Source: Phormidesmis priestleyi Ana (lineage in GTDB: Bacteria; Cyanobacteriota; Cyanobacteriia; Phormidesmidales; Phormidesmidaceae). Taken from it: a stretch of 41,232 nucleotides of DNA. Positions 334 to 39,556 of the stretch are shown one piece after another. The notes under the pieces are model-generated. The model did not search any database. It was not told the DNA's origin and saw only the letters and a program-made list of their open reading frames with translations. The stretch is taken from assembly GCA_001314865.1 (NCBI GenBank), contig LJZR01000029.1, positions 31,364 through 72,595 of the forward strand. The letters are read 5' to 3'. The number at the start of each line of letters is the position of its first letter. Position 1 is the stretch's first letter. The position numbers and the translations under genes were made by a program.

Positions 334-1638
334 TTATACGAAAGTCTTCGACATCAATTTCGATGCCCATTTTTGATCAACTAAAATACATGAGCGTTTT
401 GTTGTAAGCTTCCCAGTTCCGTAGAAATCTCCACATTCAACACTAAGAGTAACAGCTTCTTGAACCCAGTCTTGAATAGTATTTCCATCTCTCAGAATCA
501 GATTAATAGAGTAATTTCCTGGAGAGAGGGGAAGCTTGTTAACTATGCAAGAAATATAACCTGCAGGAAGAAATTCGCAAAGCTCTTGCGAGGCAAATTG
601 ATTACTTAATTCAGTTAAGCACCCACCACCAGGTTGATTAATACTTATTCCGGCAACAGCATTCTTTGACGAAAAGTTTTTGGAGGATGCATAGTATATT
701 CTAAACTCCGTGTACTGACCAGAAAGTAAGATTGCTTGCTCATTACCACTCCTATCAAATGCTGAAAAATGAGTTATCTTAACTTTCCCTTCGCCCTTTC
801 TGTCCTTCCTATCAGATAGATTGTCTGCAGTAATGACCTTGATTTGTTCTAGATAAGCCTCCATCGCTGTGTGGACAGATTCAAGTGGAGATTGAATAAC
901 TCCTTCCTTGAGTACCATAGCTTTTGAACAAAGTGCAGAAACAGCGGCCATATTATGGCTAACAAAAATAACTGTACGGCCTTCTCCTGCGACATCTTGC
1001 ATTTTCCCCAAGCACTTCTTCTGAAACTGCGCATCCCCAACCGCCAACACCTCATCCACAATCAAAATCTCCGGCTCCAAATGCGCCGCCACCGCAAACG
1101 CCAACCTTACATACATCCCACTGCTATACCGCTTCACCGGCGTATCCAAAAACCGCTCCACCTCAGCAAACGCCACAATCTCATCAAACTTTCGGCGAAT
1201 CTCCGCCTTACTCATTCCTAAAATTGCACCATTCAGGTAAATATTCTCCCGCCCCGTCAGCTCCGGATGAAACCCCGTCCCCACCTCCAGCAAACTCGCC
1301 ACCCGCCCCCGAATCTTAATCCGCCCCTTCGTCGGCTCCGTAATCCGACTCAAAATCTTCAACAGCGTAGACTTTCCCGCCCCATTGCGGCCAATAATGC
1401 CGACTCTGTCCCCCTGCTTAATGTCGAACGACACATCCTTAAGAGCCCAAAAGTCTTCGGAGGGGGAGTGGGGAGTTGGGAATGGGGAGCGGGACTTTAG
1501 AGGGTTAAAGCGCTTGGCGAAGCCCTTAGCACCATTAGCCACCACATCCCGCAGCGCCGTATATCGCTCACCCTCTTGCTGGTGCCCAATAACATACTTC
1601 TTGCCTAGGTTTTCGACTCGGATAACAGTATCAGACAT
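334..1638 (-). CDS. wzt: ABC transporter ATP-binding protein for polysaccharide export, Wzt-like with C-terminal recognition domain
   Basis: Energises export of lipid-linked polysaccharide through the inner membrane together with the permease at 2258-3088. Seen: Walker A GRNGAGKST at residues 83-91, Q-loop region, a signature segment around YSSGM, Walker B ILIVDEVLAVGD and switch FVSHNM. A separate C-terminal domain (about 285-430) is the position where Wzt-type proteins bind the glycan. Residues 49-61 (SRSPFPTPHSPSE) are encoded by a heptanucleotide-like repeat inserted in frame before the conserved FWALKDVSF. At about position 1010 composition changes: the N-terminal half is GC-rich (about 55-60% in sampled lines) and the C-terminal half AT-rich (about 40%), suggesting replacement of the specificity domain. 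The permease is upstream on the same strand, separated by a 620-bp spacer with a palindromic array. KpsT/TagH-type alternatives are less likely because of the long C-terminal domain. Confidence 0.93.
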   Translation of the reverse strand: MSDTVIRVENLGKKYVIGHQQEGERYTALRDVVANGAKGFAKRFNPLKSRSPFPTPHSPSEDFWALKDVSFDIKQGDRVGIIGRNGAGKSTLLKILSRITEPTKGRIKIRGRVASLLEVGTGFHPELTGRENIYLNGAILGMSKAEIRRKFDEIVAFAEVERFLDTPVKRYSSGMYVRLAFAVAAHLEPEILIVDEVLAVGDAQFQKKCLGKMQDVAGEGRTVIFVSHNMAAVSALCSKAMVLKEGVIQSPLESVHTAMEAYLEQIKVITADNLSDRKDRKGEGKVKITHFSAFDRSGNEQAILLSGQYTEFRIYYASSKNFSSKNAVAGISINQPGGGCLTELSNQFASQELCEFLPAGYISCIVNKLPLSPGNYSINLILRDGNTIQDWVQEAVTLSVECGDFYGTGKLTTKRSCILVDQKWASKLMSKTFV

Positions 1639-1815: not shown

Positions 1816-1901
1816 AATGCAGTCATTCCATTGCCCTCATAGACTTCATTATGCTGAGCTACTTAAGTAAGCTACCCTGCTCAGCAAGCATTCATAAGCT
1901 A

Positions 1902-2185
1902 CGTTTACTAGTTAGTAACTAACCTATAAGCGTTTATAGCTTTTGCTTACTAGTTAGCAACTAACTAGTAAGCGTTAGTAAGTTTTGCTTACTGGTTAGC
2001 AACTAACTAGTAAGCGTTTATAGCTTTTGCCTACTGGTTAGCAGCTAACTAGTAGGCGTTTATAAGTTTTGCTTACTGGTTAGCAACTAACTAGTAAGCG
2101 TTTATAGCTTTTGCCTACTGGTTAGCAACTAACTAGTAAGCGTTTATAGCTTTTGCTTACTGGTTTACAGCCAACTAAGTAGGTC
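1902..2185. repeat. Array of seven palindromic units with exact 42-bp period
   Basis: Six hairpins start at 1945, 1987, 2029, 2071, 2113 and 2155, each exactly 42 bp from the last. A diverged unit precedes them at about 1902. The model unit is GCTTACTAGTTAG, loop CAA, CTAACTAGTAAGC (13-bp arms), separated by 13-nt A/T-rich spacers ending in TTTT. The unit at 2029-2057 has GCCTAC paired with GTAGGC instead of GCTTAC with GTAAGC, so both arms changed together. The unit at 2113 has only one arm changed. The first and last units are degenerate. The array lies between the permease stop (2258) and the ATPase start (1638), so it would be transcribed within the exporter mRNA. A 10-bp direct repeat TAAGTAGGTC sits at 1748-1757 and again at 2176-2185. 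Confidence 0.9.
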
Positions 2186-2220
2186 AGAGGGCATCACAAG
2201 CGAGTCAAACCGCGATTACC

Positions 2221-2257
2221 CACTCCCTACTCCCCACTCCCTACTCCCCACTCCCCC
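2221..2257. repeat. STRR-like heptanucleotide tandem repeat (CCCCACT / CCCTACT type)
   Basis: Tandem 7-mers of the form CCCTACT and CCCCACT run up to the base before the permease stop codon at 2258. This type is known from cyanobacteria as short tandemly repeated repetitive (STRR) sequence. Related stretches occur at about 1455-1494 (inside wzt), 3346-3362, 3880-3905, 6488-6540 and 40274-40297. Confidence 0.8.
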
Positions 2258-3088
2258 CTAAATCACATCCGCAAACGTCCGCTCCACCCGCCGAAAATAC
2301 TGAACCCCCGTCACCAAAATCACCAACACCAACCCCAGCGACAAACAAAAACCCGGCCAATAAATCGCCGAATCATTCCCCAAAATCGCCCAGCGAAACC
2401 CATCAATCACCCCCACCATCGGATTGAGCGAATACAACAGCCGCCACTTCTCCGGCACAATACTGCTACTAAACCCCACCGGCGAAATATACAAACCAAA
2501 CTGCACCACAAATGGCACAATATAGCGAAAATCCCGATACTTCACATTCAAAGAACACAGCCACAACCCCGCCCCCATCGACGCCGCAAACGCAATGGCA
2601 ATAAACAGCGGCAGCGTAACAATCCGCCAGCTCGGCACAAAATTATACCAAATCATCAACCCCAGCAAAATCATCCCCGAGATCATAAAATCCACAAAAC
2701 TGGTCACCACCGCACTCGTCGGCACCACCATCCGAGGAAAATACACCTTAGAAATCAAATTGGCATTGCTAATTAAACTCTCACTCGCCGAACTCAAAGA
2801 ATTCGAAAAAAACTGCCAAGGCAACATCGCCGAAAACACCAAAATCGGATAAGGCACCCCCTCCGACGGCAGCTTCGCCAAATTCCCAAACACAATCGTA
2901 AACACCACCATCGTCAAAAACGGACGAATCAGCGCCCACGCAACCCCAATCACCGTTTGCTTATAGCGAACCGAAATATCCCGCCAAGCCAGCGTATAAA
3001 ACAACTCTCGATAACGCCACAAATCCTTCCAATACTGCTTCTCAGCTCGGCCCGCCTCAATAATCAGTTCCGGTGGTTGAGTTGTCAT
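2258..3088 (-). CDS. wzm: ABC-2 type polysaccharide export permease, Wzm-like
   Basis: Membrane partner of the ATPase at 334-1638, moving undecaprenyl-linked polysaccharide across the cytoplasmic membrane. Seen: about 276 residues, the usual size. An N-terminal cytoplasmic stretch is followed by the family segment RDISVRYKQTVIGVAWALI and PFLTMVVFTIVFGNLA. Several hydrophobic helices follow, then the C-terminal block SLNPMVGVIDGFRWAILG typical of Wzm/RfbA/TagG permeases. The longest frame would begin at a TTG (3112). The ATG at 3088 is preferred because GGAAG lies 5 nt upstream and family members begin near this point. A heptanucleotide repeat abuts its stop codon. The ATPase follows 620 bp downstream on the same strand. 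Confidence 0.93.
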   Translation of the reverse strand: MTTQPPELIIEAGRAEKQYWKDLWRYRELFYTLAWRDISVRYKQTVIGVAWALIRPFLTMVVFTIVFGNLAKLPSEGVPYPILVFSAMLPWQFFSNSLSSASESLISNANLISKVYFPRMVVPTSAVVTSFVDFMISGMILLGLMIWYNFVPSWRIVTLPLFIAIAFAASMGAGLWLCSLNVKYRDFRYIVPFVVQFGLYISPVGFSSSIVPEKWRLLYSLNPMVGVIDGFRWAILGNDSAIYWPGFCLSLGLVLVILVTGVQYFRRVERTFADVI

Positions 3089-3237
3089 AAAAACTTCCAA
3101 TAACTGCAACAATTCTCACGCTTCTCGCGCTTCTCACACTCAATCCCAAACCCGCCACGCTTGCCTTACCCAAATCTAAGTAGCTCAGCATACCCTCATA
3201 ACAAAAACAGATATTTCAGAATGAGTCAAAGCCGCAA

Positions 3238-3591
3238 TCATTCTAATGTCGAAACATCATTCGGTAATAACTGAACAACAAACGCTAACACCAACTCCGC
3301 CATCTCCACTGCCGCCTCAGCCTCATCCTTCTTTTTGAGGGTGGGGAGCATGGAGTAGGGAGTAGGCGTTGGTTCGGGCATAAAACCTTGCCCAAACTCC
3401 TCAAAACGATCCTGCAAACCTACCTTACGCCGACCATCAGGCAGACGCAAAATGCCATAGCAGATCTCCGCAATCGAAATGCTAGTCGTTGCCAAAGATA
3501 CCAAAGGCTCCCTCTCCAACCAACGAACAACCTGAAGATTAGGAACAGGCCGCATCATCTCAGAAAGAACATTAGTATCCAGGATAATCAA
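3238..3591 (-). pseudogene. Chimeric ORF: N-terminal half of a FitB/VapC-type PIN toxin joined to a HEPN-like tail
   Basis: Seen: residues 1-70 (MIILDTNVLSEMMRP, later AEICYGILRLPDGRR) match the first half of FitB-like PIN ribonucleases, with the first catalytic Asp (D5) and the Glu of AEICYG. The second half, which should carry the remaining two acidic metal ligands, is missing. After a proline-rich linker PEPTPTPYSMLP, encoded by a heptanucleotide-like repeat, the last 30 residues (DEAEAAVEMAELVLAFVVQ and LLPND) resemble the C-terminal end of the HEPN protein at 4117-4530 (DAEEAMKMAATVLAFVSQ, KLPDE). The start is a TTG overlapping the TGA stop of the antitoxin by 4 bp (TTGA), the usual coupling of such modules. 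Inference: an inactivated toxin produced by a deletion between two modules. Confidence 0.75.
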
Positions 3592-3830
3592 TCTTCCAGC
3601 CCATCCACTTCACGCATCTCAACCGCAGGATGCGCCCCCAGTTCCACTCCCCAATCTACACCAAACAGCGAAGACGCCAGCGACGCAAGCGTCGTAGACT
3701 CATCTTTCTCCAAAACACATTGCAAAATCAACTGAGCCTCTTCTTCTACAGAGCGCCCACCCTGCGCAGCCCTCGCCTTCAACCGAGCCGTTAGTCGATT
3801 ATCCAGATCCCGAATAGTTATGCTGCTCAT
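3588..3830 (-). CDS. FitA-like ribbon-helix-helix antitoxin
   Basis: Small DNA-binding antitoxin that would neutralise a FitB/VapC PIN toxin and repress its own operon. Seen: MSSITIRDLDNRLTARLKAR at the start is a typical ribbon-helix-helix N-terminus, then AAQGGRSVEEEAQLIL as the helical pair. The C-terminal tail FGVDWGVELGAHP is the region that normally inserts into the PIN domain. The ATG at 3830 is chosen over an upstream start because it begins the conserved strand. The cognate toxin directly downstream (4-bp overlap) is truncated, so this antitoxin is probably orphaned. The gene itself looks intact at 80 residues. Confidence 0.85.
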   Translation of the reverse strand: MSSITIRDLDNRLTARLKARAAQGGRSVEEEAQLILQCVLEKDESTTLASLASSLFGVDWGVELGAHPAVEMREVDGLED

Positions 3831-3864
3831 TACCCCTATCTCACCCATAGTCGCAATACGCCAA

Positions 3865-4107
3865 TTATATAGTACGCATCCCAACCCCAATCCCTATACC
3901 CCCATCCACATAACTCAGCAGCGCAATCCCACCCACAAGCAAATAGTCCACCTGGCGTTCCGCCAAAAGCTCAAACAAGCGGTTAATTGCGATCGCAATA
4001 TCGTCACCCGTCGGCATCAGGTCACTCCAGTTCTTAGGATCAAACCAAATTCCATTCTTAACGATTTCGCTAACTGACGACACCGACATAAGCTTAATAA
4101 CACGCAT
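3865..4107 (-). pseudogene. Truncated nucleotidyltransferase-like gene (N-terminal part only)
   Basis: Seen: 80 residues ending shortly after VDYLLVGGIALLSYVDG, which is the opening of the nucleotidyltransferase active-site region (GG-I-A) in proteins that normally continue with an arginine/asparagine segment and a DxD motif. Here the frame runs into GGIGIGVGMRTI and a stop, encoded by G-rich sequence (GGGGGTATAGGGATTGGGG) resembling the heptanucleotide repeats nearby. The catalytic aspartates are therefore missing. It starts 9 bp after the HEPN stop codon, so it could be the third gene of that operon. Inference: a pseudogene whose 3' part was lost in the same kind of rearrangement that truncated the PIN toxin. 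Confidence 0.65.
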
Positions 4108-4116
4108 CCAATAGGT

Positions 4117-4530
4117 TTATTGAGGCTCTGTCATCTCATCGGGTAACTTCTGCGAGACAAACGCCAGAACGGTCGCCGCCATTTTCATAGCCTCCTCGGC
4201 ATCTTTCCTGTCCGGCTCTAACTCATCGCCAGGATAGCGAAACTCCATAACGTATGGCGTTAGCATACGCGCCTCTGTCTTTAATTGAGAAAAGCTAGAG
4301 TCATACGCGGCGCACATCTCTAGAATCGCTACTAGGTCATGCGATCTTTGTAGTTCACAATCTCTAAAGACTAAATAACCCTTAAGTGCTTTCTCCGCAG
4401 ACTGCTGACAGTGATAAACACCAGCATCTAATAACGGCTCTGCACTAGCCATCAGGATTTGAGCCGCTTTTAGGTCTCTTTTGCTCTTGACAAGCCATTG
4501 CCTAATCTCATCAGCCTTTGGGTTATCCAT
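4117..4530 (-). CDS. HEPN domain protein, partner of an MNT nucleotidyltransferase
   Basis: HEPN proteins paired with minimal nucleotidyltransferases form type VII toxin-antitoxin systems, where HEPN is the RNase toxin and MNT modifies it (known for the family). Seen: 137 residues with SKRDLKAAQILMAS, the YHCQQSAEKALKGYLVF helix and RSHDLVAILEMC, where the HDL follows arginines as in the RNase-type HEPN motif. Next come a tyrosine-bearing MEFRYPGDE loop and a C-terminal helix DAEEAMKMAATVLAFVSQ. The start ATG overlaps the upstream nucleotidyltransferase stop by 8 bp, indicating translational coupling. It appears intact, although a non-toxic HEPN cannot be excluded. Confidence 0.88.
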   Translation of the reverse strand: MDNPKADEIRQWLVKSKRDLKAAQILMASAEPLLDAGVYHCQQSAEKALKGYLVFRDCELQRSHDLVAILEMCAAYDSSFSQLKTEARMLTPYVMEFRYPGDELEPDRKDAEEAMKMAATVLAFVSQKLPDEMTEPQ

Positions 4531-4894
4531 ACAAAGCTTTGCCCTTGCGCAATACCAAACTCACCAAAGAACCTGGCACCGTCGCCTTCCTATCAAATTC
4601 CCTACGCGTCATCACAATAATATCTTTTGGGTAGCCCAATCCCTGCAGAGCCTTATGAGCTTCCTGAGCGCGTCTGTAGCCAGGCTCATTCGACACCGAA
4701 ACCACCACCATCAGGTCAATATCACTATGCTCATTCGGCTCACCATAAGCATAAGAGCCAAACAAAATAATCCGCTCCGGGTTCAAGCTGCTCACCAGCC
4801 GCTCAACCACATCATCTAATAACCCAACTGGCAAAGTCTTCACGATAAAAACGCCTGCAGCACTGCTCCCCCTATCATAAAGGCCCAGGCACAT
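4523..4894 (-). CDS. Minimal nucleotidyltransferase (MNT), HEPN-associated
   Basis: Predicted AMP/nucleotide transferase antitoxin acting on the neighbouring HEPN protein. Seen: PERIILFGSYAYGEPNEHSD directly followed by IDLMVVV, the GSX10DXD signature, then a C-terminal segment PKDIIVMTRREFDRKA typical of this family. The frame is open upstream to 5092, but that part contains a 12-bp inverted repeat (5016-5065) and unlike-protein sequence, so a downstream start is preferred. ATG at 4894 and GTG at 4843 are both possible. The GTG would give about 107 residues (VKTLPVGLLDDVVERL), closest to the family size. HEPN follows with an 8-bp overlap. Confidence 0.85.
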   Translation of the reverse strand: MCLGLYDRGSSAAGVFIVKTLPVGLLDDVVERLVSSLNPERIILFGSYAYGEPNEHSDIDLMVVVSVSNEPGYRRAQEAHKALQGLGYPKDIIVMTRREFDRKATVPGSLVSLVLRKGKALYG

Positions 4895-5015
4895 CTCTCC
4901 CCCAAAACTAACCCTAGCTGGGTCAACCTTAGGATGTCTGCCTGGCCAATCACGTGGCCTCAGCGACTTCGATATTGCGCAAGCCATGAAATAAGCTGAC
5001 TCATAAAACACACTT

Positions 5016-5065
5016 CGACTCCGCTCAGCGCTCGTCGCGCGATAACCGAGGGGTGAGCGGAGTCG
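5016..5065. repeat. 12-bp inverted repeat, interspersed palindrome (CGACTCCGCTCA / TGAGCGGAGTCG)
   Basis: CGACTCCGCTCA at 5016-5027 is mirrored exactly by TGAGCGGAGTCG at 5054-5065, with a 26-nt GC-rich spacer. Palindromes with TTCGACTCCGCTCAG-type arms are widespread in bacterial genomes as REP- or MITE-like elements. This one sits just upstream of the MNT gene. The remaining sequence from 5066 to 5332 shows nothing recognisable. Confidence 0.75.
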
Positions 5066-5332
5066 TTCGCAACTCAAGTCAGCCTCAGACACAAGTCTCC
5101 CTCAAAACCGGCCCCATATCTGGCCAAGCCTGAGGAGACTGAGATCTAAAAAAAGACCATCGAAGCCCACACTCGTCACTCAAAAAAAGATATCGAATAG
5201 AACCTAAGAAAAACAACTTTCTCAAAGTATTCTATCTATGCTGTAAGTAAACCGGTGCTGTAAAAAAATAAATGCTTCAAAAGAGCTAGCAAAGAACAAC
5301 GCTTAGGAGTCTGACTCAGACAACATTATCCT

Positions 5333-5807: not shown

Positions 5808-5858
5808 AGTCCCTCCCCTGATAAATACTTAAACAATCAAATCTTTAAATCCAAGCCT

Positions 5859-6006
5859 AACTAAGTAACCAATCAAAATAAATTACAAAACACTAACAGA
5901 CGGTTTAACTTGCTCGTAATGCCCCCCGACCATCAATCTTGGGGGCTCTGAGTCCGGTTCCCCCCAAACTTGGGGGGTTAGGGGGGCGTCGGGGTTTAGG
6001 TAATTA
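5859..6006. repeat. Interspersed repeat family, copy 1 (about 150 bp)
   Basis: Begins AACTAAGTAACCA, continues through CACTAACAGACGGTTTAAC and CTCGTAATGCCCCCCGAC. It then has GGGGGCTCTGAGTCCGGTTC and a palindrome CCCCCCAAACTTGGGGGG, ending GGGGTTTAGGTAATTA. Copy 2 follows directly at a 158-bp offset and copy 3 lies at 13548-13740, all in the same orientation. No protein is encoded. Together with copy 2 it fills most of the 5808-6523 spacer. Confidence 0.9.
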
Positions 6007-6016
6007 AGGTTTAGGT

Positions 6017-6184
6017 AACTAAGTAACCAAGCAAAATAAATTACAAAACACTAACAGACGGTTTAACTTACTCGTAATGCCCCCCGACCCCCAAGTTTGG
6101 GGGCTCTGAGTCCGGTTCCCCCCAAATTTGGGGGGTTAGGGGGGCGTCGGGGTTTAGGTAATTAATTATGCACATCTACTTAGC
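6017..6184. repeat. Interspersed repeat family, copy 2
   Basis: Nearly identical to copy 1 over its full length, with CCCCCCAAATTTGGGGGG as a perfect palindrome. It then extends through AATTAATTATGCACATCTAC, an extension shared with copy 3 but not copy 1. The G-block/C-block pairs nest so that GCCCCCC near the left pairs with GGGGGGC near the right. Confidence 0.9.
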
Positions 6185-28311: not shown

Positions 28312-28440
28312 AAAAAAAAACGCCTGGGATTCGTCAAAAAATCTGAATCCAAGCGTTCGATCAGGGTGCATCTACCACCTAATTATTCCGAACAAGGCTC
28401 CCTCATCCGGGAGAAAAGATAAAAAGCGCCGCGAATATTC
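28312..28440 (-). ncRNA. Candidate small RNA with promoter, hairpins and rho-independent terminator
   Basis: Seen on the minus strand: a -10-like TATACT (28452-28447), then about 130 nt containing hairpin CTCCCGGATGAGGGAG (28413-28398), hairpin GGTGGTAGATGCACC (28379-28365) and a terminator. The terminator stem is CGCTTGGATTC / GAATCCCAGGCG (28355-28321, one bulge), followed by nine T. No open reading frame of note crosses it. The terminator cannot belong to ddl, which starts downstream at 28220, nor to a protein gene on this strand. No matching -35 box was clear. Family not recognised (not Yfr1-, 6S- or tmRNA-like). An alternative is a read-through guard for ddl. Confidence 0.5.
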
Positions 28441-37717: not shown

Positions 37718-39490
37718 TTGGTGAATCCTTCTTCTCAAACCGCATCAGGTCACAACTTAGATCACAACATTGTCGTCGCTGATGATCGCTTTGATGTATT
37801 GGTCATTGGCGGCGGCGCAGCAGGACTGTACTCGGCCCTGTGCTTGCCGAGCCATCTTAAAGTTGCGCTGGTAACCAAAGACAATTTGAGTGTTTCTGCG
37901 AGTGACTGGGCCCAGGGTGGCATTGCTGCGGCGATCGCCCCCGAAGATTCGCCCTCGCTACATGTGGCCGATACCCTCCGGGCAGGCGCTGGCCTGTGTG
38001 AACCCAGCGCTGTTGGGCTATTGGTAGAAGAAGCTCATACCTGTATAAAATCTTTGGTGGATTTGGGCGTTGCCTTTGATCGCACGGGCGAGCAGCTGGC
38101 TTTGACGCTAGAGGCCGCCCATTCGCGTAAGCGGGTGCTGCACGCGGCTGATACCACAGGTCATGCGATTGTTTCAACGCTGGCTTTGCAGGTGCTCAAA
38201 CGAGAAAATATTTGGGTTTTTAATCAAACCTTCGTGCTCGATTTGTGGACGGATGAGGCAGGTTGCAGGGGCGTTTGTCTCTCTCAAGATCTCTCTCAAG
38301 ATTTTTCCTCAAACGATCTCTCTCCAGGCGATCTCTCTCCAGACGATTTCTCCCCAAACGATCTTTCAGCTTCATCCCCACCTTTGACCATTCGATGGGT
38401 TCCTGCTCGCGCTGTGGTACTGGCCACTGGCGGCGGCGGGCAGGTCTTTTCGCAAACGACCAATCCAGCGGCCAGTACAGGTGATGGCATTGCGATGGCC
38501 TGGCGGGCAGGGGCGCAGCTGCGTGACCTAGAGTTTTTCCAGTTTCATCCAACGGCGCTGACCCAACCGGGAGCACCCAGATTTTTGATCAGCGAAGCCG
38601 TCCGAGGAGAAGGCGCGCATTTGTTAGATGCTAAGGGCGATCGCTTTGCCTTTCAGTACCATCCTGACGGCGAACTCGCCCCTCGTGATGTGGTTAGCAG
38701 GGCCATTTTTTCGCATTTGCAAAAGGCAGAAGTGCCTGACAACAAAGTTTGGTTAGACCTAAGCCCGATTGAGCCTGAGCGCATTCGCTATCGCTTTCCT
38801 AACATTATTAAAGTGTGTAAGCGCTGGGGCATTGATGTTTTTAATGAGCCGATTCCCGTATCGCCAGCGGCGCATTATTGGATGGGCGGTATTACCTGCG
38901 ACTTAAGCAGCCAAACCACGATTAAGCATCTCTATGCTGTGGGAGAAAATGCCAGTACGGGCGTACATGGCGCCAATCGGCTAGCCAGTAATTCTCTGTT
39001 GGAATGCTTGGTGTATGGCGCGCAGCTCAAAAATATTCGGCTCGCAGATGAATGCCCCTCGGTTGTAGGAGCAGACGCTAAAAAGGTCGTACTGACAGAT
39101 GAGTGGCTAAAAAATTTGTTGTACTGGCGATCGCACCTCCCTCAACTGATCTGGAAAAATGCAGGTATCTCCCGCGAGCAGTCGCGAATGGAAGTAGCGC
39201 TATGTCAAGTACAGCAGTGGCAAGCCGAGTTTGATGCGCTTTCTTTGAGCCAAGCGCTTAGGCTTAAACCGGGCGAAACGGTTCAGCTGCCTGAATCGGT
39301 GACAGGCGATCAGGTGCGCCTATGGGGTGAAGTGGAAAATTTGTTAGCGATCGCGGCCCTCATTCTCAAATGCGCTAACTTCCGCACCGAAAGCCGAGGC
39401 GGCCACTACCGTAGCGACTATCCAACGCCCGATGACCAGTGGCTAGGCCATACGGTTTTAGAAGGCGACACTTTAAAGCGCTCTCAATAA
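37718..39490 (+). CDS. nadB: L-aspartate oxidase
   Basis: FAD enzyme converting L-aspartate to iminoaspartate, first step of NAD synthesis with NadA. Seen: FAD-binding VLVIGGGAAGLYSALCL, ASDWAQGGIAAAI, VVLATGGGGQVFSQTTNPAA, FFQFHPTAL, RGEGAHLLDAKGDRF and GENASTGVHGANRLASNSLL, all diagnostic of NadB rather than succinate dehydrogenase. The frame opens at TTG 37700. TTG 37718 is preferred because AGGAG lies 9 nt upstream; GTG 37721 is next best. A 15-bp in-frame repeat region (38272-38372) codes LSQDLSQDFSSNDLSPGDLS before the ATIRWVPARAVVLATGGG-like strand. A 28-bp tandem repeat spans the stop codon. Confidence 0.97.
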   Translation: MVNPSSQTASGHNLDHNIVVADDRFDVLVIGGGAAGLYSALCLPSHLKVALVTKDNLSVSASDWAQGGIAAAIAPEDSPSLHVADTLRAGAGLCEPSAVGLLVEEAHTCIKSLVDLGVAFDRTGEQLALTLEAAHSRKRVLHAADTTGHAIVSTLALQVLKRENIWVFNQTFVLDLWTDEAGCRGVCLSQDLSQDFSSNDLSPGDLSPDDFSPNDLSASSPPLTIRWVPARAVVLATGGGGQVFSQTTNPAASTGDGIAMAWRAGAQLRDLEFFQFHPTALTQPGAPRFLISEAVRGEGAHLLDAKGDRFAFQYHPDGELAPRDVVSRAIFSHLQKAEVPDNKVWLDLSPIEPERIRYRFPNIIKVCKRWGIDVFNEPIPVSPAAHYWMGGITCDLSSQTTIKHLYAVGENASTGVHGANRLASNSLLECLVYGAQLKNIRLADECPSVVGADAKKVVLTDEWLKNLLYWRSHLPQLIWKNAGISREQSRMEVALCQVQQWQAEFDALSLSQALRLKPGETVQLPESVTGDQVRLWGEVENLLAIAALILKCANFRTESRGGHYRSDYPTPDDQWLGHTVLEGDTLKRSQ

Positions 39491-39556
39491 AGCGCTCCCA
39501 TTAAAGCGCTCTCAATAAAGCGCTCCCATTAAAGCACTCTCAATAAAGCGCTCTCA
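39473..39556. repeat. 28-bp tandem repeat, three copies, spanning the nadB stop codon
   Basis: 39473-39500, 39501-39528 and 39529-39556 share TTAAAGCGCTCTCAATAAAG and CGCTCCCA. The first includes the last nadB codons and TAA; the third has two to three changes. Confidence 0.92.

Follow-up and report, generated by a model that had tools for sequence, protein, structure and literature searches.

The tandem array between wzt and wzm in Phormidesmis priestleyi Ana is, on balance, best read as a lineage-specific copy of a dispersed cyanobacterial satellite-like DNA, built of 21-bp units (idealised GCTTTTGCTTAAGCGTTTGCW) whose spacing of two helical turns is probably maintained by a putative DNA-binding protein that is specific for one face of the helix. 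The array resembles a travelling piece of DNA more than a switch that controls the sugar-export genes on either side. The dispersed occurrence was observed directly: arrays lie at several intergenic places per genome and are missing from relatives at both gene pairs that were checked. Neither excision nor movement of an array was observed. The repeat family is apparently undescribed. The earlier note knew of no described family with this unit, and likewise no description of a 21-bp phased family was found among the entries listed from the literature searched, where subscription papers are thinly covered and older descriptions may exist.

We analysed a window of 41,232 nucleotides, that is, the whole stretch of DNA covered by the earlier note. 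Its positions 1897-2185 are made of seven 42-bp units, which form hairpins with 13-bp arms and 3-nt loops; of this layout, read from the letters in the earlier note, the period was reproduced by TRF (1905-2165, period 42, 6.2 copies, 89% matches, zero indels) and the hairpins by a pair-by-pair reading. The 42-bp unit is better described as two units of 21 bp, first A (GCTTTTGCTTACTGGTTAGCA) and then B (ACTAACTAGTAAGCGTTTATA), which together make the hairpin. Successive hairpins are separated by a stretch that also recurs, slightly varied and mostly in the form GTTTATAGCTTTT. Seven hairpins had been counted in the earlier note; seven units are indeed present, five of them with good hairpins, while the two end units have decayed. 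The array occupies part of a 619-bp gap between wzt and wzm, and no terminator-like site (G+C-rich stem plus T run) was detected in 1600-2300. An Rfam scan returned nothing at 1871-2185 at gathering score; its sole match in the window was NsiR1 (Nitrogen stress-induced RNA 1) at 28312-28377 on the minus strand, which scored 40.6 bits where the gathering threshold is 39.

Table 1. Features of the array in the gap between wzt and wzm and of its surroundings (window positions).
Feature	Position	Strand	Evidence
Leader GCTAyCCTGCTCrGCrAGCATTCATAAGCTACG, common to the C23 array	1871-1902	+	Direct reading and pattern search
First 42-bp unit, degenerate	1897-1938	+	Arms 1903-1915 / 1919-1931, 9/13 pairs
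Five 42-bp units, each 21-bp A GCTTTTGCTTACTGGTTAGCA + 21-bp B ACTAACTAGTAAGCGTTTATA with small variations; 13-bp hairpin, 3-nt loop	1939-2148	+	
Hairpin with two-sided (compensatory) change GCCTAC/GTAGGC	2029-2057	+	Pair-by-pair reading
Last unit, degenerate; right end of the array	2149-2185	+	6/13 pairs
wzt, ABC ATPase with Wzt C-terminal domain, flanking gene	334-1638	-	Pfam PF00005 (ABC_tran), PF14524 (Wzt_C)
wzm, ABC-2 permease, flanking gene	2258-3112	-	Pfam PF01061 (ABC2_membrane)
Heptamer-type repeat CCCACTC, adjoins the array, separate from the 21-bp family	2219-2256	+	TRF

Several other features were seen in the window. A 158-bp tandem repeat in two copies (5858-6165) includes a run like CCCCCCAAACTTGGGGGG, which by eye resembles a run at ~1790-1816 in the wzm-wzt gap, and a 14/28-bp repeat (TAAAGCGCTCTCAA / TAAAGCGCTCCCA) with an AGCGCT palindrome lies at 39473-39556. 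On the minus strand at 4117-5092, a HEPN-domain protein adjoins a small protein with a GSYAYGE...SDIDL nucleotidyltransferase-like motif, and the two presumably form a HEPN/MNT toxin-antitoxin pair. A PIN-domain protein (Pfam) with a small upstream ORF at 3238-3890, also on the minus strand, makes a putative VapBC-like pair.

In the window array, 12-13 of the 13 positions are Watson-Crick paired in the hairpins whose arms start at 1945, 1987, 2029 and 2071; the hairpin at 2113 has 11 such pairs together with one G-T and one A-C. The arms of the degenerate end units start at 1903 and 2155 (Table 1). The compensatory change in both arms at 2029, which the earlier note had pointed out, held up pair by pair. 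So did its account of G-T pairs on the plus strand in most units, with 2113 differing: G-T occurs in four of the five good units (1987, 2029, 2071, 2113), and 2113 has the A-C in addition. Folding was strong on the plus strand (-133.1 kcal/mol, z -8.9) and on the minus strand (-118.1 kcal/mol, z -8.2), and on neither were any of 200 shuffles as good. For the analysis of covariation we used 16 A-B units of the window genome and of genome G019 (15 of them distinct), picked because they look like A-B pairs. Among the 15 distinct units, two-sided changes affect 9 of the 13 pairs, where shuffling gives 4.3 on average, and covariation scores 0.373 compared with 0.198 when shuffled. Helices slid out of register reach at most three pairs; standard pairs fill 87% of the pair cells of the 16 units. 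Pairing is thus maintained in the window genome and G019, as the earlier note had suggested, and the unit is not the common slippage repeat devoid of covariation that the note had named as one possible outcome against its reading. The two-sided changes may come from selection or from templated copying of one arm, which fit these data alike. Since G-T and A-C pairs (18 and 11) are close to what is expected with columns shuffled (19.6 and 13.1), with no strand preference beyond composition, these counts single out no strand, and a functional strand derived from them was rejected.

Beyond these two genomes the pairing signal is uneven. Over 30 arrays, complementarity between neighbouring units lies above permutation (Watson-Crick z +3.8, A-C z -2.2) and complementarity within units lies below it (z -3.5). 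Taken array by array, the between-unit z exceeds 2 in 7 of 29 and is under -2 in one, and in the arrays of G197 the two arms, read by eye, vary without matching each other. Hairpin pairing is therefore a feature of some arrays and not of the whole family.

In 47 non-redundant arrays with 493 units, 441 of 446 steps measure exactly 21 bp at a gap penalty of 8 bits, a strictness that may be overstated because the units were located by a register-based model that favours in-register arrays; with more lenient penalties the exact steps numbered 444 of 473 (4 bits) and 434 of 487 (2 bits). Neighbouring units in these arrays average 57.5% identity. Pattern searches of 242 genomes served as a control on the spacing: two A cores 21 bp apart were matched 107 times with at most three mismatches (73 of these in six genomes), compared with 21 matches at 20 bp and 22 at 22 bp, and the patterns read backwards were matched 10, 5 and 7 times at 21, 20 and 22 bp. 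When at most one mismatch was allowed, 20 matches in four genomes persisted at 21 bp and none at 20 or 22 bp. Autocorrelation of the arrays peaks at 21, 42 and 63 (z 67.8 at lag 21), with no excess at lags 7 and 14 (z -0.3 and -3.1). The 43 arrays of at least six units comprise 477 units, and at 80% identity 293 of these count as distinct within the array concerned. Twelve of the 43 are organised as higher-order repeats, with a best lag of three or four units; identity at this lag is 0.75 or more and exceeds the identity of neighbours by 0.15 or more. The best lag of the window array is four, twice its own two-unit repeat. DNA curvature as a common property was rejected: predicted from wedge parameters, it is heterogeneous across arrays, with a mean percentile of 0.35 relative to periodic shuffles and high values in only part of the arrays, that of the window among them.

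The earlier note had proposed a search for the unit across cyanobacterial genomes with scoring of covariation. Within the class (388 genomes), the structure model R1 matched in 12 of 388, the window genome included, and the sequence model R2 in 39 of 388, representing 20 of 159 genera; two R1 matches in G347 (L031, L039) belong to another palindromic repeat, rich in GTTAAC, and were dropped. Of the 39 R2-positive genomes, 29 have a confirmed array that scores 40 bits or more; such arrays were confirmed, in addition, in G102 (via R1) and in Nostoc sp. JL33. The set of 47 arrays draws on 27 of these 29 genomes, with G287 and G018 left out as redundant (a 30-mer in common with a kept array). As for the other ten R2-positive genomes, G275, G343, G217 and G030 came just under the threshold (34.8-38.1), and the R2 loci of G329, G364, G150, G200, G256 and G347 lay outside the array confirmation. 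In all, eight scanned loci below 40 bits and 19 redundant loci were excluded. In a gapped-pattern scan of genome and viral contigs, only two among the 175 loci listed scored above 40, both from Nostoc sp. JL33; with the ungapped unit matrix the next best listed locus reached 27.3 and the median was 13.2, mostly chance matches, and the background maximum over the other 173 listed loci was 27.3 without gaps and 33.7 with gaps. The distribution is patchy even within the genus, where G006 alone among six congeners has an R2 match. The window array matched neither phages nor plasmids and an array of G019 matched no plasmids; an array of G206 weakly matches three Tolypothrix/Fremyella plasmids. The related plasmid repeat is identical in PCC 7601, PCC 7712 and NIES-3275, with no copy-number variation seen; in Tolypothrix sp. 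PCC 7601 (NZ_CP064881.1, L331:5013-5233) it consists of 63- and 84-bp repeats downstream of a CHAT-TPR gene, and this stretch does not score with the 21-bp matrix, the best score in the locus (13.1) lying elsewhere.

Three more arrays stand in the window genome itself. Those at C23 and C40 have 21-bp A runs and some A-B hairpins; the third, at C5, is diverged. A units in succession make up most of the C23 array, with a few B units among them. The C40 array lies between hsdM and hsdS-type genes; its A units are variable, and two of its B units match the preceding A with other letters, one position off in each case (GATAGGTCAG / CTAACCTATC and GATAGGTTAG / CTAGCCTATC). The leader, which begins at ~1871 in the window, stands upstream of the arrays at C53 (the window) and C23, and its last part also starts the C40 array; in a pattern search it was free of mismatches only at C53 and C23, the other four of six matches having three mismatches. 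The C5 array has 18 units in register, arranged in 42-bp repeats, and a matrix score of 123 with a weak R2 match (E 0.005); the gene that precedes it encodes a NACHT C-terminal helical domain. Having been found after the set of 47 was fixed, the C5 array stands outside that set.

The arrays are intergenic, and the orientations of the flanking genes, taken from simple ORF calling, are spread 14, 11, 9 and 7 over the four arrangements (41 arrays with both neighbours called). No single gene is common to the neighbourhoods examined; recurring neighbour types are NACHT at three arrays, Uma2 at two and TIR at two. The NACHT/STAND-type genes adjoin arrays at L330:1-1038, L054:1452-4841 and L080:1648-3054. 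Small ORFs that look alike by eye adjoin arrays in two different genera (L020:3434-3868 and L021:2722-3012) and had no Pfam or NCBIfam match. In G197, six nearly identical arrays with fairly sharp ends occupy six places; three of them have a right flank in common, which suggests segmental duplication, and two others have ~50 bp of left flank in common. A tyrosine integrase (Phage_integrase, with a SAM-like N-terminal domain) is encoded ~0.7 kb from an array of this genome (L062:2946-3920). Empty sites were found at both gene pairs. In eight relatives wzm and wzt are adjacent and the array is missing; measured between the stop codon of wzm and the aligned start of wzt, the gaps are 4, 14, 44, 46, 71, 95, 96 and 449 bp long. 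Around the best DUF1400 homologues of six congeners (putative orthologues with 55-65% identity), the flanks examined lack the C23 array. The role tied to wzm-wzt that the earlier note had considered is not supported by these comparisons: a regulatory element specific to wzm-wzt would be conserved with the gene pair, and the array is not. What emerged is largely a repeat family unrelated to the apparent operon, another of the outcomes the note had set against its own reading, and no known mobile family matched it.

Four other explanations were weighed against the phased satellite, among which a neutral satellite carries more weight than a transposase-bound element, and the latter more than an array of RNA hairpins. 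A purely selfish or neutral minisatellite, in which copies of a single ancestral 21-bp array spread and lengthened under no selection on phase or pairing, accounts well for the patchy, lineage-specific and intergenic occurrence with no one conserved neighbour and no clear preference in orientation, and duplication of whole units by its nature preserves unit length. It has difficulty, however, with a register kept in all but five steps between neighbours that differ as much as these, and with so many units being distinct within their array. In a neutral simulation that started from identical units, with off-register fractions taken at the neighbour identity observed, indel:substitution ratios of 0.005, 0.01 and 0.05 left 2-3%, 6-7% and 25% of units off register. 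The strict observed fraction (1.1%) requires a ratio below ~0.005, and the 4-bit count (6%) matches one of ~0.01; real ratios are probably higher than these. We consider the neutral course a credible competitor, though an unlikely one. It is rather improbable that the arrays are non-autonomous elements mobilised by a specific transposase with the 21-bp units as its binding sites, in the manner of subterminal repeat arrays, the phase then reflecting the transposase. The leader common to two arrays of the window genome (G000), the fairly sharp ends at six loci in G197 and the one integrase gene near an array (L062) speak for such an element, yet no transposase was among the neighbours given to Pfam, and neither target-site duplications nor terminal inverted repeats could be established.

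At the RNA level, a transcribed hairpin array in the wzm-wzt gap that serves to process, stabilise or attenuate the mRNA would explain the strong folding of both strands, the covariation in A-B units and the excess of between-unit complementarity over the 30 arrays. An operon attenuator or similar mRNA element is nevertheless unlikely, because the array is missing from the wzm-wzt gaps of the eight relatives, its orientation relative to genes is mixed and no terminator-like site accompanies it, and it was rejected as an account of the window array; the few arrays with raised between-unit complementarity, the deficit within units and the G-T and A-C counts with no strand preference beyond composition likewise speak against RNA hairpins, for which we see little room. 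Least of all do we expect decayed protein-coding repeats, according to which the 21 bp would be seven codons left from a heptad-repeat protein (AFAxAFA-like in frame 1). Some frame-1 readings are patterned, L098 and L284 being free of stops in that frame and L083 having 2 stops in 15 units, and three arrays adjoin NACHT-type genes. Against this, pooled stops per unit stay near the column-shuffled values in all six frames (frame 1, 0.487 vs 0.480), the largest drop falls in frame 2 (0.350 vs 0.406 column-shuffled), four translations of three arrays had no Pfam match up to E 0.1, and codon 4 of the consensus is TAA.

The arrays were also compared with known repeats. The STRR (short tandemly repeated repetitive, heptamer) sequences of filamentous cyanobacteria are described, in the excerpt of PMC2670836 used here, as intergenic, tandem and hairpin-capable, with no known function; the hairpins mentioned there are those of STRR alone. 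Our arrays are likewise intergenic, tandem and hairpin-capable, and 21 and 42 are multiples of 7, but the 7-bp period is missing from them (no excess at lag 7 or 14 next to the strong peak at lag 21), and identity with the heptamer STRR was rejected. LTRR of Anabaena/Nostoc PCC 7120 are tandem repeats of intergenic DNA as well, whereas the unit quoted in the excerpt of PMC2408588, aaatccctatcagggattgaaac, is by eye unrelated to the 21-bp unit, and LTRR identity was rejected too. The REP/BIME elements of the GTAG and CGTC families are, in the part of PMC3733652 drawn on, short palindromic intergenic repeats, dispersed and sometimes clustered. Short palindromic, intergenic and dispersed also describes the arrays reported here, whose stem (GCTTAC...GTAAGC), in contrast, has no GTAG or CGTC foot, and whose strict 21-bp step and higher-order repeats are not in that part of the REP account (PMC3733652). 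CRISPR was rejected, there being no unique spacers and the stretch between hairpins being itself repeated, and so was an RNA family described in Rfam, given the empty scan over the leader and array.

The closest parallels are structural. Alpha-satellite-like arrays consist of divergent monomers of fixed length, form higher-order repeats of several monomers and are dispersed within a genome. The cyanobacterial arrays have such divergent fixed-length monomers, partly in higher-order repeats, and are dispersed; unlike alpha satellites they are bacterial, with a 21-bp monomer, a length of a few hundred bp and no known role as centromeres. Plasmid iterons are direct repeats of ~20 bp spaced at two helical turns, a spacing also found here at nearly every step. 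In contrast to iterons, the arrays stand at several loci per genome. No initiator (Rep) gene was seen among the subset of neighbours given to Pfam.

For the phased satellite we propose the following course. A seed of the array would move or be copied to a new site, where unequal exchange, or slippage during replication, would duplicate whole units, several at a time, and so lengthen the array. Indels would be weeded out if each unit must occupy the same face of the helix, and such a demand would most simply reflect the binding site of a putative dimeric or multimeric DNA-binding protein. In the window genome, A and B units that came to stand in inverted order would give rise to hairpins, and the two-sided changes could then stem from selection on a cruciform or an RNA, or from templated copying of one arm during replication. 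Tentatively, the family may be a class-wide satellite, whose divergent 21-bp monomers, set at exactly two helical turns and arranged in higher-order repeats, would serve as dispersed one-faced platforms for a putative fast-evolving DNA-binding protein (chromosome-organising or recombinase), with the sites diverging along with it between lineages.

In other settings, DNA that is organised by proteins is characterised by helically phased arrays with higher-order repeats, and a widespread phased array with a putative binding protein provides a concrete bait sequence in cyanobacteria. Furthermore, a hairpin that lies in an apparent operon and shows a compensatory change can be part of a repeat that travels and not of a regulatory RNA, a lesson that bears on automated RNA discovery in repeat-rich cyanobacteria.
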